Assembly (NCBI RefSeq): GCF_900156455.1 | Contig: NZ_FTNQ01000004.1 | Location: forward strand, 124,001-188,000 | Direction: 5' to 3' | Length of the DNA: 64,000 bases | Origin: Microbacterium sp. RURRCA19A | GTDB taxonomy: Bacteria > Actinomycetota > Actinomycetes > Actinomycetales > Microbacteriaceae | The notes under the pieces: generated by a model | The model's input: the letters and a program-made list of their open reading frames with translations, nothing else | What the model was told of the DNA's origin: nothing | Database searches by the model: none | In this document: positions 15,868 through 61,811 of the stretch, in pieces | Position numbering within the stretch: position 1 is the first letter of the stretch | Layout of the letters: the number at the start of each line of letters is the position of its first letter | Translations under genes and position numbers: made by a program

Positions 15868-15982
15868 CGGCTCCTCCACAACGCGGGATTCGGGTGAAGT
15901 TCGGCGCGAATGGCATGTGCGCATGACTCGCCGTCGTACGAGTGACGTACATTCGACGCATCCACCTCAGGAAGGACCGCCC

Positions 15983-16315
15983 GTGAACCTCGACACCGTG
16001 CAAGCGCTCGTCGCCCTCGCCGCGTTCTTCCTCACGTTCGCGGCCGCCAATCTGGGCGGGGTGAAGTGGATGCTGGTCCGGCTGGAACAGCGGACGGACG
16101 AGCGTTTCGACCGCGTGGATCGGCGCTTGGACCGGCTGGAGGCGAGCACCGACGAGCGATTCACGGAGGTCGACCGGCGATTCACGGAGGTCGACCGGCG
16201 ATTCGCGGAGGTCGACCGGCGATTCGCGGAGCTCGGTGCGACCCTCACGGACATGAAGATCGCCCTGGCCCGGATCGAAGGTCCGCACCCGCCCTTCCTC
16301 ATCGCCCGCGGCTGA
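15983..16315 (+). CDS. Membrane-anchored coiled-coil protein with heptad repeats
   Basis: A 110-residue protein with one N-terminal membrane helix (residues 6-30) followed by a coiled coil built of heptads (DRRLDRLE, then DRRFTEV, DRRFTEV, DRRFAEV, DRRFAEL). The GTG at 15983 has GGAAGGA six bases upstream, and TACATT at 15948-15953 is a likely -10. The repeats are encoded by nearly identical 21-bp DNA units. Similar small proteins of Actinobacteria are unassigned; the structure suggests oligomerisation at the membrane. Confidence 0.8.
   Translation: MNLDTVQALVALAAFFLTFAAANLGGVKWMLVRLEQRTDERFDRVDRRLDRLEASTDERFTEVDRRFTEVDRRFAEVDRRFAELGATLTDMKIALARIEGPHPPFLIARG
16156..16239 (+). repeat. Tandem 21-bp coding repeat, four units
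   Basis: Units start at 16156, 16177, 16198 and 16219. The first two are identical, the third differs by one base (TTCACG to TTCGCG) and the fourth diverges at its end. Each encodes one heptad of the coiled coil, so copy-number slippage would change coil length without breaking the frame. Confidence 0.9.
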
Positions 16316-55453: not shown

Positions 55454-55496
55454 AGATCTCGGCGACGAGATGTCCCACCCGAGCAAGGGAGCTTCC

Positions 55497-56858
55497 ATGA
55501 AGAAATCGACGACGATTGCCGGCGGTCTCATGACCGCCGCAGCGCTGACCGTCGCTCTGGCCGGCTGCGCCGGCGGGGGCGGCAGCAGCGCAGACGCGAA
55601 CACGATCCGTGTCGCGTACCAGACCACCGCCACGTTCAACCAGATGCAGACGCTGATGGAGAACGCCAAGAAGCAGTTCGAGGCCAGCCACGAAGGTGTG
55701 ACGGTCGAGCTCGTTCCCATCCAGGCCGAGGGGCCGGACTACTACACGAAGCTCGCGCTGATGAACAAGTCGGCCAGCACCGCCCCCGACGTGCAGTACG
55801 AAGACACGTTCAAGATCCAGTCCGACGCCGCGGCCGGCTACCTCCTGCCGCTCGACGACTACCTCGCGAAGTGGGACGACTGGTCGCAGTTCGCCGAAGG
55901 CGCCAAGCAGGCCGGCCTCGGCCCCGACGGCAAGACCTACGGAGTCTCGCTCGGCACCGACACCCGCGGCCTCTGGTACAACAAGGACCTCTTCGCCAAG
56001 GCCGGCATCCCCGTGCCGTGGCAGCCCAAGACCTGGGCCGACATCCTCTCCGCCGCCGAGAAGGTCAAGGCCGCCGACCCCGACGTGATCCCGATCAACG
56101 TCTACTCGGGCAAGACCGCCGGTGAGGCGGCCTCCATGCAGGGCCTGGAGATGCTCCTGTACGGCACCGACGACACCCTCTACGACACCTCGTCGAAGAA
56201 GTGGGTCGTGGGCAGCCAGGGCTTCAAGGACTCGCTGAAGTTCATCTCCGACGTCTACCAGGGCGGTCTCGGACCGTCGCTGCAGCAGGCGCTCGACCCG
56301 AACATCTTCACCAGCGTCACCGCGGACTGGCTGCCCTCGAGCAAGCTGGCCATCGCGCTCGACGGCTCGTGGCAGTCCGCCGCCTGGATCGACGGCGGCA
56401 CCGCCCCGTGGCCCCAGTGGAGTGACACCCTCGGCATCGCCGCCATGCCGACCCAGAAGGGTCAGGCGCCCGGCACGACGAGCATGTCCGGCGGCTGGAC
56501 CCTCGCCCTCGGCAAGAACACCAAGAACGCCGACCTGGCGTGGGAGTTCCTCACCACCGCGGTGAACAAGGAGAACGCCACCTCGTACGACATCGACAAC
56601 AGCCAGATCGCCGTCCGTGCGGACGTGGCCAAGTCGACCGAGTACCTCGGCGCCAACCCGAGCTTCGAGACCTTCTCGAGCTTCGTCGACACCACCCACT
56701 TCCGTCCCGCCACTGAGGACTACGACAAGATCTCCAACCAGATCCAGGTCGCGATGGAAGCGGTCATGACCGGCCAGTCCAGCGTCGACGACGCGGCAGC
56801 CGCCTACGACCAGGCCGTCATCGGCATCGTCGGCGAAGAGAACACCCAGAAGGGCTGA
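55497..56858 (+). CDS. Extracellular solute-binding protein, carbohydrate ABC transporter
   Basis: A 453-residue family 1 (MalE-like) binding protein. Signal peptide with lipobox ALAGC near 20-24 predicts a lipoprotein; VAYQTTATFNQMQTLMENAKKQFEASHEGVTVELVP and GLWYNKDLFAKAGI...PKTWADIL are typical of sugar-binding SBPs. AAGGGAG precedes the ATG. First gene of the transporter operon; the downstream GH38 mannosidase suggests manno-oligosaccharides or related glycans as substrate. Confidence 0.93.
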   Translation: MKKSTTIAGGLMTAAALTVALAGCAGGGGSSADANTIRVAYQTTATFNQMQTLMENAKKQFEASHEGVTVELVPIQAEGPDYYTKLALMNKSASTAPDVQYEDTFKIQSDAAAGYLLPLDDYLAKWDDWSQFAEGAKQAGLGPDGKTYGVSLGTDTRGLWYNKDLFAKAGIPVPWQPKTWADILSAAEKVKAADPDVIPINVYSGKTAGEAASMQGLEMLLYGTDDTLYDTSSKKWVVGSQGFKDSLKFISDVYQGGLGPSLQQALDPNIFTSVTADWLPSSKLAIALDGSWQSAAWIDGGTAPWPQWSDTLGIAAMPTQKGQAPGTTSMSGGWTLALGKNTKNADLAWEFLTTAVNKENATSYDIDNSQIAVRADVAKSTEYLGANPSFETFSSFVDTTHFRPATEDYDKISNQIQVAMEAVMTGQSSVDDAAAAYDQAVIGIVGEENTQKG

Positions 56859-56860
56859 TC

Positions 56861-57793
56861 ATGACCGCCCCGGCCATCACCGGGGCGACCGGCCCCGGCC
56901 GGAGGTCGCGCGCCACCACGCGCGGCCTCCGGTCGTCGGTCCGGGCGCTCCCGCTGCTCCCCGCCGCCCTGCTGCTGGCGGTCTTCCTGCTCGGCCCGAT
57001 CCTGGTGTCGCTGTGGGGCTCCCTCACCAACGCCACGCTCTCGGGCTCGACCGCCGTCGACTCGCAGTTCGTCGGCTTCCAGAACTACACCCAGCTGTTC
57101 GCCTCGCCCGACTTCCCGGTCGCGGTGATCAACACGATCGTCTTCGTGTTCTTCTCCGCCGTCGTCGGGCAGAACGTCCTCGGTCTCGCCCTTGCGCTCA
57201 TGATGCGCTCGGGCAACCGCATCGTCACCGCCGTCGTCGGAACGATCGTGGTGACCGCGTGGGTGCTCCCCGAGATCGTCGCGGCCTTCGCCGCCTACGC
57301 GTTCTTCCGCGACAACGGCACCCTCAACGCCGTCCTCGGCGTCTTCGGCCTCGAGCCGGTGAGCTGGCTGTTCACGATGCCGGTGCTCATGGTGATCTTC
57401 GCCAACATCTGGCGCGGCACGGCGTTCTCGATGATGGTGTACTCCGCCGCGCTGTCCGACGTGCCGCCCGAGATCACCGAGGCGGCCGAGGTCGACGGGG
57501 CCAGCGGCATCAAGCGGCTCATGCTCGTCACCATCCCGATGATCCGCTCGACCATCGGCACGAACTCGATGATCGTGACGTTGCAGACCCTCTCGGTCTT
57601 CACGCTCATCTTCGTCATGACCGGCGGCGGCCCGGGCACCAAGAGCACGACGCTGCCGATCCTCGCGTACCAGCAGGGCCTGAAGTTCGGCGAGCTGGGC
57701 TACGGCACCGCGATCGCCACGATCATGCTCCTCATCGGCGCGGTCTTCTCGTTCTTCTACGTCCGCGCGCTGCGCGAGGAGGTCTCGTCGTGA
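56861..57793 (+). CDS. Carbohydrate ABC transporter permease (MalF type)
   Basis: A 310-residue permease with six membrane helices. The EAA loop reads EAAEVDGASGIKRLMLVTIPMI near residues 205-226, needed for contact with the ATPase. GSLTNATLSGSTAVDSQFVGFQNYTQLF is the usual first extracellular loop. AAGGG precedes the ATG two bases after the SBP gene. The C-terminus VRALREEVSS is duplicated exactly in the next mini-gene. No ATPase gene is present, so a shared MsiK-like ATPase probably energises it. Confidence 0.93.
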   Translation: MTAPAITGATGPGRRSRATTRGLRSSVRALPLLPAALLLAVFLLGPILVSLWGSLTNATLSGSTAVDSQFVGFQNYTQLFASPDFPVAVINTIVFVFFSAVVGQNVLGLALALMMRSGNRIVTAVVGTIVVTAWVLPEIVAAFAAYAFFRDNGTLNAVLGVFGLEPVSWLFTMPVLMVIFANIWRGTAFSMMVYSAALSDVPPEITEAAEVDGASGIKRLMLVTIPMIRSTIGTNSMIVTLQTLSVFTLIFVMTGGGPGTKSTTLPILAYQQGLKFGELGYGTAIATIMLLIGAVFSFFYVRALREEVSS

Positions 57794-57854
57794 ACTCCCT
57801 CCTATATGTCTCCGTCCTCTTCTCCGTCCGCGCGCTGCGCGAGGAGGTCTCGTC
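57760..57854 (+). repeat. Direct repeat of 30 bp at the permease junction
   Basis: The 30-bp segment ending the first permease gene (57760-57789, including GAGGAGG) recurs identically at 57825-57854, 65 bp downstream. Only the base after it differs (GTCGTGA versus GTCATGA). It carries the last codons of the permease plus the ribosome-binding site of the next gene. Confidence 0.95.
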
Positions 57855-57858
57855 ATGA
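57790..57858 (+). CDS. 22-residue mini-gene bridging the two permease genes
   Basis: GTG at 57790 overlaps the first permease stop (GTGA) and has GGAGG seven bases upstream; TGA at 57856-57858 overlaps the second permease start (ATGA). The encoded peptide MNSLLYVSVLFSVRALREEVSS ends with the same ten residues as the first permease. This looks like a tandem duplication that kept translation coupled through an extra tiny reading frame. Whether the peptide has a function is unknown; it may serve only as a ribosome bridge. Confidence 0.55.
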   Translation: MNSLLYVSVLFSVRALREEVSS

Positions 57859-58757
57859 CCACCACCACCCTCCCCGAGGTCGTGGGCACCCGCGCGCGGC
57901 GTGCCCCGAAGCGCACGAAGACCTCCCTCTCATCGCCCCGCACCCGTGCCCTGCGCGTCATCTCGAACACGCTGCTCATCGTCATCGGCATCCTGTTCGT
58001 CGTCCCGCTGGTGTGGCTCGTCACGGCGTCGCTCGACGCGCAGCCGACGCTCGCGATCAAGATGCCCGAGGTCATCACCCTCGACAACTTCGCCGCGGTG
58101 ATGAAGCCCGACCTGCTGTTCCTGCCGCTGTGGAACAGCGTGCTGCTCGCGGGCGGCACGGCGATCGCCACCGTCGTGCTCGCCTCGCTCGCGGCCTACC
58201 CGCTGTCGCGCTACAAGATGCGCGTCGGAAAGCCCTTCCTCTACGCGGTGCTGTTCGGCACGTGCCTTCCGATCACCGCGATCATGGTGCCGGTCTACAG
58301 CCTGTTCGTGCAGCTGAACCTCATCGACTCGATCGGGGGGACCATCCTGTTCCTCACCGCGAGCGCCCTGCCGATCGCCATCTGGATGATGAAGAACTTC
58401 ATGGACGGGGTGCCCGTCGAGCTGGAGCACGCGGCCTGGATGGACGGCGCGGGATCCCTGCGCACGCTCGTGCAGATCGTGCTGCCGCTCATGCGCCCGG
58501 GGATCGCGGTGGTGTTCATCTTCACTTTCATCCAGGCATGGGGGAACTTCTTCGTCCCCTTCGTGCTGCTGCTCAGCCCCGACTACCAGCCGGCCGCGGT
58601 CAGCATCTTCAACTTCTTCGGCTCGTTCGGAGCGGTGGCCTACGGCCAGCTCGCGGCCTACTCGATCGTCTACTCCCTTCCGGTCCTCGGCCTGTACGTC
58701 CTCGTGCAGCGCGGGCTCGGCGGCCCGTCGGCTCTCGCCGGCGCGGTCAAGGGCTGA
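57855..58757 (+). CDS. Carbohydrate ABC transporter permease (MalG type)
   Basis: A 300-residue permease with six membrane helices. The EAA loop is ELEHAAWMDGAGSLRTLVQIVLPLMRPG near residues 190-215. N-terminal basic segment (RARRAPKRTKTS), first helix NTLLIVIGILFVVPLVWLVTASLDAQ. ATG overlaps the mini-gene stop and has GAGGAGG upstream. Pairs with the MalF-type permease. Confidence 0.93.
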   Translation: MTTTTLPEVVGTRARRAPKRTKTSLSSPRTRALRVISNTLLIVIGILFVVPLVWLVTASLDAQPTLAIKMPEVITLDNFAAVMKPDLLFLPLWNSVLLAGGTAIATVVLASLAAYPLSRYKMRVGKPFLYAVLFGTCLPITAIMVPVYSLFVQLNLIDSIGGTILFLTASALPIAIWMMKNFMDGVPVELEHAAWMDGAGSLRTLVQIVLPLMRPGIAVVFIFTFIQAWGNFFVPFVLLLSPDYQPAAVSIFNFFGSFGAVAYGQLAAYSIVYSLPVLGLYVLVQRGLGGPSALAGAVKG

Positions 58758-58784: not shown

Positions 58785-61700
58785 ATGCACGACCGCACCG
58801 CGCTCATCGAGATGCGCATCGACCGCTTCGTCCGCGAGCGTCTCGCCCCCGCCGTCTATCGCGCCCGCCAGCCCCTCGACATCTCGGCCTGGGAGGCCCC
58901 GGGCGAGCCCGTGACCTTCGCCGAGGCCGCCGCCGCCGAGTACCGTCCCTTCGCCGTCGGGACGCCGTGGGGCCGGGCATGGGGGACCACCTGGTTCGCC
59001 GTGTCGGGGGAGATCCCGGCCGCGTGGCGCGACGCCGACGGCGCGCTGCCCGACGGCACCGTCGCCGAGCTCGTCATCGACCTCGGCTTCACCGCCGGGC
59101 AGAGCGGCTTCCAGTGCGAGGCCCTCGTGTGGAACCGCCAGGGTGCGCCGATCAAGGGCGTGTCTCCGTTCAACAACGCCACCTCCGCGGCCCTCGACGC
59201 CGACGGCCGCGTCGACGTGCTCGTCGAGGCGGCGTCGAACCCCGACGTCGGCAGCCTCTTCACCTTCGAGCCGACGCACCTGGGCGACCCCGCCACCGCC
59301 GGAGACGCTCCTCTCTATACGCTCCGCGACATGTCGATCGGTCTGCGCGACCTCGCGGTGTGGGAACTGCTGGCGGACTTCCGTCTGCTGCGCGGCCTCA
59401 TCGATGAACTCGACGCGACCTCGGCCCGCCGGGCGACGCTGGTGGAGGCGATGGATGCCGCGATCGACGCCGTCGACCCGCACGATGTCGCGGGAACGGC
59501 CCAGGCCGGCCGCGACGTGCTCGCTCCGCTGCTCGCGGCGCCCGCGGCATCCAGTGCCCACGTCCTCCACGCCGTGGGGCACGCGCACATCGACTCGGCC
59601 TGGCTGTGGCCGGTGCGGGAGACGGCGCGGAAGGTCTCGCGCACCTTCTCGAACGTGCTGTCGCTCATGGACGAGGACCCCGAGTTCGTCTTCACCAGCT
59701 CGTCGGCGCAGCAGTTCGCGTGGATGAAGCAGCACTACCCGGCGCTCTGGGAGCGCCTGAAGGAGCGCGTCGCGGAGGGGCGCTTCGTGCCCGTGGGCGG
59801 CATGTGGGTCGAGTCCGACACCAACATGGTCGGCGGCGAGGCGATGGCCCGCCAGTTCCTCGAGGGCAAGACCTTCTTCCAGGAAGAGTTCGGCATCGAC
59901 ACCGAGGAGGTGTGGCTGCCCGACTCGTTCGGCTACAGCGGAGCGCTGCCGCAGATCATGAAGGCCGCCGGAGCCCGCTGGTTCCTGACGCAAAAGATCT
60001 CGTGGAACGAGACCAACCGCATCCCGCACCACACCTTCCAGTGGGAGGGCATCGACGGCTCGCGCATCTTCACGCACTTCCCGCCCGTCGACAAGTACAA
60101 CTCCGAGGTCACCGCGGCCGACCTCGCGCACGCCGAGCGCAACTTCGCCGACAAGGGCCGCGCGCGGACGTCCCTCCTGCCGTACGGCTTCGGCGACGGC
60201 GGCGGCGGCCCCACGCGCGAGATGACCGCGACGATCGCCCGCGCGCACTCGCTCGAGGGTGCGCCGATCGTGAAGCACTCCACGCCGCGGGAGTTCTTCG
60301 AGACCGCCGAGGCCGAATACGCCGACCCGGCCGTGTGGGCGGGGGAGCTGTACCTGGAGTTCCACCGCGGCACCTACACCAGCCAGCTGCGCACGAAGCA
60401 GGGCAACCGCCGCAGCGAACACCTGCTCCGCGAAGCCGAGCTGTGGGCCGCGACCGCCGCCGTCCGCACGGGCGCCGCGTACCCCGCGGAGGCGTTCCGG
60501 CGCCTCTGGCAGCTCGTGCTGCTGCAGCAGTTCCACGACATCCTCCCCGGCACCTCCATCGCCTGGGTGCACCGGGATGCCGAGCGCAACTACGCCGCGA
60601 TCGCGACCGAGCTCGAGCAGATCATCGCCGACGCCCTGCGCGCGCTCGCGGGGGAGGGCGACCGCACGCTCGTGGCCAACGCCGCCCCGCACACCCGCTC
60701 CGGTGCCCCGGCCCTCGGGATCGCGGCGGCTCCGGCCGTCCGCGACGTCGCCCCGCGCGCGGAGGGGGCGGGCTTCGTGCTCGACAACGGCGTCGTCCAC
60801 GCCGTGATCGACGCCCGGGGTCTGATCATCTCGCTCGTCGAGGTGGCATCCGGTCGCGAGATCGTCCCCGAGGGGCAGGCCGCCGGCCTGTTCCAGCTGT
60901 TCCGCGACACACCCACCCAGTGGGACGCGTGGGACATCGACGAGACCTACCGCCGCCACGTCACCCCGCTCGACGCCGCGCGGGCGGTGCGCATCGACGG
61001 CGACGCGGTCGTGGTCGAGCGGACCTTCGGCGACTCGCACCTGACCACCCGCATCGCGCTCGCCGCGGGCGCGCGCACGGTGCGCCTGTCGATCGACGTC
61101 GACTGGCACGAGCAGCAGCAGCTGCTCAAGCTCGCCGTGCCCGTCGACGTGCACACCGACCGGGCGGCATCCGAGATCCAGTTCGGCCACATCACGCGTC
61201 CGACCCACACGAACACCTCGTGGGATGCCGCGCGCTTCGAGACCGCGGCCCATCGCTGGGTCCGTGTCGCCGAGCCCGGCTTCGGTGTCGCCGTGACGAA
61301 CGACTCGACCTACGGCCACGACATCACCCGCCACGCGCGCGAGGCCGGCGGCACGTACTCGCTCGTCCGGTTGTCGATCATCCGCGGCGCACTGTTCCCC
61401 GACCCGCAGCAGGACCAGGGCGCGCACCACCTCGAGGTGGGCATCGTCGTCGGCGCCGAGGTCGAGGACGCCGTCGTCGAGGGCTACCGCACCAACCTGC
61501 CGCTGCGTGTGATCGAGGGGGCGGGTGCGGAGGAGGTCGCCCCGCTGGTGACCGTCGACGACGAGGGGGTCGTCGTCGAGGCGGTCAAGCTCGCGCACGA
61601 CGGCTCCGGTGACGTGATCGTGCGGCTGTACGAGGCGCGGGGTCGTCGCGCCCGCGCGCGGGTGGCGGTCGGATTCGCCGCCTCCGGCGCGGTCGAGACC

Positions 61701-61811
61701 GACCTGCTCGAGCGACCGGTCGCGGCCGCCGCGGTCGTGGATGCCGACGACACGACGGTGGAGCTGGCCCTGCGCCCGTTCCAGCTCGTGACGCTGCGCT
61801 TCACCCGCTGA
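58785..61811 (+). CDS. Alpha-mannosidase, glycoside hydrolase family 38
   Basis: A 1008-residue GH38 enzyme. The zinc site begins with GHAHIDSAWLWPVRET near 266-280 (His and Asp ligands); the nucleophile region is VWLPDSFGYSGALPQIMKAAG near 376-396; the GH38 central helix bundle follows and beta-domains occupy residues 600-1008. No signal peptide, so it acts in the cytosol on imported mannosides. AAGGAA precedes the ATG. Co-transcribed with the SBP and permeases. Confidence 0.93.
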   Translation: MHDRTALIEMRIDRFVRERLAPAVYRARQPLDISAWEAPGEPVTFAEAAAAEYRPFAVGTPWGRAWGTTWFAVSGEIPAAWRDADGALPDGTVAELVIDLGFTAGQSGFQCEALVWNRQGAPIKGVSPFNNATSAALDADGRVDVLVEAASNPDVGSLFTFEPTHLGDPATAGDAPLYTLRDMSIGLRDLAVWELLADFRLLRGLIDELDATSARRATLVEAMDAAIDAVDPHDVAGTAQAGRDVLAPLLAAPAASSAHVLHAVGHAHIDSAWLWPVRETARKVSRTFSNVLSLMDEDPEFVFTSSSAQQFAWMKQHYPALWERLKERVAEGRFVPVGGMWVESDTNMVGGEAMARQFLEGKTFFQEEFGIDTEEVWLPDSFGYSGALPQIMKAAGARWFLTQKISWNETNRIPHHTFQWEGIDGSRIFTHFPPVDKYNSEVTAADLAHAERNFADKGRARTSLLPYGFGDGGGGPTREMTATIARAHSLEGAPIVKHSTPREFFETAEAEYADPAVWAGELYLEFHRGTYTSQLRTKQGNRRSEHLLREAELWAATAAVRTGAAYPAEAFRRLWQLVLLQQFHDILPGTSIAWVHRDAERNYAAIATELEQIIADALRALAGEGDRTLVANAAPHTRSGAPALGIAAAPAVRDVAPRAEGAGFVLDNGVVHAVIDARGLIISLVEVASGREIVPEGQAAGLFQLFRDTPTQWDAWDIDETYRRHVTPLDAARAVRIDGDAVVVERTFGDSHLTTRIALAAGARTVRLSIDVDWHEQQQLLKLAVPVDVHTDRAASEIQFGHITRPTHTNTSWDAARFETAAHRWVRVAEPGFGVAVTNDSTYGHDITRHAREAGGTYSLVRLSIIRGALFPDPQQDQGAHHLEVGIVVGAEVEDAVVEGYRTNLPLRVIEGAGAEEVAPLVTVDDEGVVVEAVKLAHDGSGDVIVRLYEARGRRARARVAVGFAASGAVETDLLERPVAAAAVVDADDTTVELALRPFQLVTLRFTR

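Follow-up and report, generated by a model that had tools for sequence, protein, structure and literature searches.

Repeated seam between two transporter permease genes of Microbacterium carries an open mini-frame that may relay ribosomes

Termination-reinitiation, as treated in PMC6728339 and PMC10666635, couples gene pairs at NTGA seams, where a stop and a start codon overlap (-4), often with a Shine-Dalgarno sequence lying within the upstream gene. Whether ribosomes need to pass across such overlaps, and over what distance, is debated, with contrasting results cited in PMC10666635. Here we describe a transporter operon of Microbacterium sp. RURRCA19A in which a mini-ORF (open reading frame) of 22 codons joins the genes for permease 1 (MalF position) and permease 2 (MalG position) through two seams of this kind. 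The hand-over in the described pairs is direct, whereas this operon has a candidate relay cistron in the middle. We consider it probable that this mini-cistron is kept open mainly for translational coupling, with its peptide sequence not the main target. The window, meaning the whole 64,000-nucleotide (nt) stretch analysed, is G000:C5:124001-188000, where G000 is the window's own genome; positions below are counted within it unless a genome is named.

Coupled small ORFs are themselves already known. An ORF coupled at -4 is present in mycobacterial interspersed repetitive units (MIRUs; PMC12548453), much as the Microbacterium mini-ORF has -4 overlaps, and these units can stand in tandem, with three 77-bp units between senX3 and regX3 of H37Rv (PMC4213456). 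They are described as interspersed and apparently mobile (PMC12548453), whereas the Microbacterium insert is an apparent local copy of a host seam, and among the matches listed for its three carrier genomes the many interspersed copies of a MIRU are absent. The mycobacterial small ORFs of Shell et al. 2015 (PMC4633059) likewise end in a stop codon that overlaps the next gene as RTGA (here ATGA, 57855-57858), and an example given there conserves the linkage where the small-ORF sequence is not conserved; those analysed start leaderless transcripts, whereas the Microbacterium mini-ORF lies between two genes and overlaps both. Integron ORF-11 and attC short ORFs are similar in that a short translated ORF supplies ribosomes to the next gene, and the attC ORF has been proposed as a cassette-to-cassette link (PMC8876359). 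They differ in arising by integron recombination, not by the copying of a gene seam. In bicistronic design, the first cistron overlaps the start of the target gene. The likeness of such leaders lies in a short first cistron before the target (PMC5995908), but they are engineered and stand at the 5' end, unlike a mini-ORF between two genes. Salmonella mgtQ, between mgtC and mgtB, is an intergenic short ORF promoting its downstream gene, although it is described as acting through alternative stem-loops and acidic codons (PMC8092293). Duplicated seams giving relay ORFs within operons were not recognised among the literature matches listed, which cover subscription journals thinly, and their novelty is held loosely. 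The original prediction from this DNA knew of no described bridge between MalF and MalG genes; that much stands among the same thin matches, but the general kind has been described in mycobacteria (PMC4633059, PMC12548453).

At the first seam, the GTG of the mini-ORF (57790) overlaps the TGA of permease 1 as GTGA (57790-57793); at the second, its TGA (57856-57858) overlaps the ATG of permease 2 (57855) as ATGA. Both are -4 overlaps as in termination-reinitiation coupled pairs, and translation confirms the doubly overlapping frame that had been predicted. The prediction that the permease 1 tail and its GAGGAGG had been copied 65 bp downstream also holds at the sequence level: an exact 30-mer (57760-57789) recurs at 57825-57854, a spacing of 65, and the extended match covers 46 nt at 91%. 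The junction holds two in-register copies of the gene 1 tail, the Shine-Dalgarno sequence and the start codon. Outside the exact 30 nt the similarity is only diffuse, with about 35 nt between the exact copies loosely alike in G000. This is the longest exact direct repeat pair at 20-250 nt spacing in the window, ahead of repeats of 28 and 26 nt near 16156, and none of 60 order-3 Markov sequences simulated at 64 kb contained a repeat of at least 20 nt at such spacing. The junction repeat is not due to chance.

Orthologous operons were collected by a DNA search of 295 Microbacterium genomes and 71 others of the genus, with one genome per species. Across these 366 genomes, permease 1 reached about 90% identity or more at 24 additional loci and at most 65% at the next-best ones. 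With the window's own operon included, 22 of the 25 have a direct -4 overlap between the permeases (19 ATG, 3 GTG) and three have an insert (G000, G323 and G058); a strict double-junction pattern over all 366 genomes returned the same three carriers. Their insert units measure 65, 65 and 62 bp and their mini-ORFs 22, 22 and 21 codons, encoding VNSLLYVSVLFSVRALREEVSS, VSALTSVSVFFSVRALREEVSS and VSAITGVSSFFSVRTHEEVSS, respectively. Given -4 overlaps at both ends, a frame bridges if and only if the unit is 2 modulo 3, as all three are. The G058 insert is 3 nt shorter and strongly diverged, with its frame still open. Relatives with a disrupted frame had been named as the finding to look for; both that carry the insert (65 and 62 bp) have it intact, and the repeat together with an open frame in three species supports a duplicated junction whose frame has been kept. 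No insert was found in the 12 Curtobacterium/Frigoribacterium loci read (L069-L080, with L082-L124 left out). Across the same 25 operons, permease 1 follows the solute-binding protein gene directly (+2 or +3) in every case, and the spacer between permease 2 and the GH38 gene (27-41 nt) is bridged in 0/25, as compared with 3/3 for the permease inserts.

Similar bridges recur at the seam between the E1alpha and E1beta dehydrogenase genes. The sample comprised 120 loci in 120 genomes: 90 of 120 matching genomes, taken in match order, and 30 that were hand-picked, among them G244 and G347, known beforehand as carriers from the pattern search. E1beta starts directly (-4 to +3) in 106 loci and not directly in 14. 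Thirteen of these 14 are bridged by ORFs of 18-27 codons (lengths 18, 21, 22, 26 and 27), making 12 distinct sets, as G244 and G347 share one. At the fourteenth (L276), which was set aside, an E1beta-like N-terminus starts at -4 and then apparently shifts frame, so that it looks like a frameshift, not an insert. The bridge of G044 ends in a -1 overlap, and the seam of G063 (L247) has two consecutive 27-codon mini-ORFs, each -4 coupled, whose 80-nt units differ at a single position. In some of these mini-ORFs a copy of the E1beta start is plain to see (VTALTLGAAINAGL... in G104); others are beyond recognition. The window's own genome has one of 21 codons, MSIDRKGAATRVRTSAGEGLE, at G000:C3:597770-597847, outside the window (L166, L235). 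All three carriers of the permease mini-ORF also have an E1alpha-E1beta mini-ORF.

Further gene pairs emerged from a generic pattern (GGAGG-NTGA...GGAGG-NTGA) scanned over the 366 Microbacterium genomes. All 75 matches were scored for coding frame on both sides with a classifier trained on five window genes, and a match qualified if the first NTGA closes gene 1 and the second opens gene 2. Twenty-one did so: 13 in phase 0 (bridging), eight in phase 1 and none in phase 2. We ruled the eight phase-1 matches to be one gene with two in-frame starts, and matches whose best upstream frame crosses the first GTG to be ordinary -4 pairs. The 13 bridging matches make up eight gene-pair families, seven besides the permeases: E1alpha-E1beta, E1beta-lipoyl protein, solute-binding protein-permease, FAD-binding-[2Fe-2S] dehydrogenase subunits, ABC ATPase-permease, OHCU decarboxylase-HIU hydrolase, and an unassigned protein-CMD protein. 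Counted by family, phase 0 against phase 2 is 8:0 (one-sided p = 0.004), or 7:0 (0.008) without the permease family. Two of these seams are again visibly repeated. That of G261 (L182; solute-binding protein to permease by Pfam) has 41 nt exact at spacing 59 and a mini-ORF, MMHPMVELFTKLKPVKEGDR, whose first codons are unlike its gene 2; that of G198 (L170; E1beta to lipoyl protein) has an exact repeat of 20 nt that takes in the start of gene 2, and a mini-ORF that starts VIAE like its gene 2 and ends EVAL like its gene 1.

Any account of the permease junction has to accommodate these observations: the repeat, the double overlap, the open frame in three species and the recurrence at other junctions. 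A tandem duplication of the seam, taking in the permease 1 tail, its Shine-Dalgarno sequence and the permease 2 start, would produce a short ORF joined to each neighbour by a -4 overlap. On leaving permease 1, a ribosome would resume at GTGA, read about 22 codons as far as ATGA, and there terminate and restart on permease 2; an insert with a bridging frame would leave translational coupling unbroken, and selection would then act on the frame. For native pairs of E. coli and Haloferax, PMC10666635 reports that coupling is almost lost once the spacing is about 20 to 38 nt. Given so steep an effect of distance, an unbridged gap of 61 nt (58 in G058) should uncouple permease 2, and the mini-ORF would restore two -4 seams across it.

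How strongly the bridging frames speak for coupling depends on how often they would arise by luck. The chance of a bridge is about 0.27 per insert. For the E1 seam the product is 1.7e-7 if the 12 sets are independent and 0.0015 if only the five length classes are counted; the true value lies between these, because the sets are partly homologous. The permease case alone is modest evidence, since other insert frames are also often open, and openness of the mini-ORF frame by itself is weak evidence because alternative frames are often open in GC-rich DNA.

Several points weigh against maintenance for coupling. The leading alternative is a neutral relic, in which a duplication was left with an open frame by luck, permease 2 initiates from its own Shine-Dalgarno sequence and the mini-ORF is idle. 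Other frames of the mini-ORFs were open in 36/44 tests, and the permease mini-ORF frame is itself open far upstream within permease 1, as a 281-amino-acid ORF (57013-57858). With one 3-nt indel among them, the three open permease frames carry little weight; partial homology makes the E1 mini-ORFs non-independent; and the GH38 spacer, being an uncoupled junction, is a control for chance and not for inserts. Eleven phase-2 matches fell short on coding score and do not enter the count. Outside the genus the pattern is unsupported: 54 matches were listed from 248 genomes of the order, where the classifier is weaker, and the four of 47 examined loci that qualify divide into one phase 0, one phase 1 and two phase 2 (the seven matches left unexamined lie in genomes with another examined match or are Microbacterium matches already treated). 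Other studies cited in PMC10666635 report coupling over longer spacers. GAGGAGG is kept before permease 2, and the claim that permease 2 could be reached only through the peptide was overstated for this reason; judged by that motif, independent initiation is possible and coupling may be unneeded. Ratios of nonsynonymous to synonymous differences (pN/pS) in eight other mini-ORF pairs (seven E1, one xdh-type) are 0.48-0.87. Presence of the insert in 3/25 operons is also patchy, as would befit a relic. We nevertheless think a relic unlikely, in view of bridges in 3/3 permease inserts and in 13/14 non-direct E1 loci, of which the fourteenth is frameshift-like, and of the family ratio in the genus, with or without the permeases.

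Two observations from outside the genus deserve separate mention. L370 and L371, from another genus of the order, have a long ORF preceded by mini-ORFs (21 and 16 codons), in a start region with tandem GGATCCATGACGAGG-type units that resembles start-site copy-number variation. L397 and L398, from another family of the order, have similar 14-codon ORFs with repeated GGAGGACC words and an ATGA onto a 291-codon ORF; their frame scores are those of a leader type, not of an ORF between two genes.

The insert might alternatively serve as a booster or timer, with a second strong Shine-Dalgarno-start pair before gene 2 tuning the subunit ratio beyond the keeping of coupling. We find this doubtful: a Shine-Dalgarno-like motif precedes E1beta in 11/12 bridged as opposed to 11/20 direct -4 loci (E1beta at least 83% identity), but the Fisher test is borderline (p = 0.05) and the loci are related, and at the permease junction the same GAGGAGG stands before both starts, with no gain. 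It is very improbable that the insert acts as a regulatory leader whose fold hides the permease 2 Shine-Dalgarno sequence unless the mini-ORF is translated. In the minimum-energy folds the second GGAGG is paired to a CCTCC stretch in G000 and G058, but not in G323, and the folding z-scores are -0.79 (G000), +1.04 (G323) and -1.57 (G058); a hidden Shine-Dalgarno sequence was rejected as inconsistent across the three carriers' predicted folds.

A functional small peptide seems at least as remote. The frame is open in three species, VR..EEVSS is retained from the permease tail, and pN/pS is below 1 in nine of the 11 mini-ORF pairs counted. The values for the permease mini-ORF pairs (2.46, 0.63 and 1.37, all from tiny samples) are nonetheless well above that of permease 1 (0.12-0.26) and exceed 1 in two of three; the conserved end doubles as a ribosome binding site, and some of the E1 mini-ORFs bear no recognisable likeness to one another. 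The peptide looks relaxed as compared with a real gene, while ratios mostly below 1 in these tiny samples make some constraint on peptide or codons possible. Assembly or sequencing artefact, to which short exact repeats are prone and which the original prediction wished to see excluded, is effectively ruled out, since the repeat copies differ at their edges and diverged versions recur in genomes of two other species, making three in all.

With regard to origin, the insert has the look of a gene seam copied in tandem. The mini-ORF ends as the permease 1 tail, and in G323 and G058 it opens with GTGAGCGCC or GTGAGTGCC, words that open permease 2 in several relatives. The start words of mini-ORF and permease 2 are alike in these two genomes, whereas the G000 opening, GTGAACTCC, is without such likeness. 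As the 35 nt between the copies are merely loosely alike, the duplication would be old or would have arrived with filler. The gyrB tree does not unite the carriers in a single clade; it places G000 with G198 and G333 (support 100/99) and G058 with G234 (100/100), with G323 placed nowhere firmly; the permease 2 tree joins G058, G234 and G323 (96/99). G323 and G058 agree at 97% in the 150-nt segments 57479-57629 and 57917-58067 and at 93% in 57629-57779, which adjoins the seam. Vertical inheritance confined to the three carriers is unsupported, as their gyrB neighbours G198, G333 and G234 are without the insert. Shared ancestry with losses (by precise loss between the repeats) and transfer by recombination are both plausible; independent origin is less likely, because the three carriers have TTCTCCGTCCGC in common at the site of TTCTACGTCCGC in permease 1. 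When the three carrier genomes were searched with 69 nt and the 40 best candidates scored in each, 36.5 bits was exceeded at the locus and at its own repeat copy and by no other match listed; this lack of further listed copies speaks against a mobile or dispersed element. No plasmid origin was indicated, the seam being without a match in the plasmid collection.

The operon as a whole runs from a ROK regulator through solute-binding protein, permease 1 and permease 2 to a GH38 mannosidase (Table 1). Elsewhere in the window, a 21-bp tandem repeat of 3.8 copies (16156-16235) lies within a forward-strand ORF (15917-16315) that encodes FTEVDRR-like heptad repeats.

Table 1. Operon genes and junction elements, in window positions (aa, amino acids)
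Feature	Position	Strand	Basis
Extracellular solute-binding protein (SBP_bac_1), first transporter gene	55470..56858	+	Pfam PF01547
Permease 1 (BPD_transp_1, MalF position), 310 aa, C-terminus ...VRALREEVSS*	56861..57793	+	Pfam PF00528, translation
Repeat copy 1, 30 nt exact: final codons of permease 1 and Shine-Dalgarno sequence	57760..57789	+	Repeat search
GAGGAGG, 7 nt ahead of mini-ORF GTG	57776..57782	+	Sequence
Mini-ORF, 22 codons, VNSLLYVSVLFSVRALREEVSS*, overlapping permease 1 as GTGA and permease 2 as ATGA	57790..57858	+	Translation; homologues in G323 and G058
Second repeat copy, exact over 30 nt, 65 nt 3' of copy 1	57825..57854	+	Repeat search
GAGGAGG, 7 nt ahead of permease 2 ATG	57841..57847	+	Sequence
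Permease 2 (BPD_transp_1, MalG position), 300 aa	57855..58757	+	Pfam PF00528
GH38 alpha-mannosidase, downstream gene; preceded by a 27-nt unbridged spacer (control)	58785..61811	+	Pfam PF01074/PF07748

Maintenance of the mini-ORF for coupling leads to a broader proposal, on which we are evenly divided: relay cistrons may be a recurrent product of operon evolution in Microbacterium, where seam duplications and later indels would survive if the frame hands ribosomes on, leaving sequence-free micro-genes that are kept for their frame and can multiply into arrays like that of G063. Some small ORFs within operons may, as a caution, be frames without functional peptides; duplication of a seam would also be a simple way for new micro-ORFs to arise. 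Seam inserts are natural experiments in this respect: if bridging frames alone persist and their peptides drift, it is coupling that is selected, and how well inserts of each reading phase survive would then be a measure of natural selection on translational coupling.
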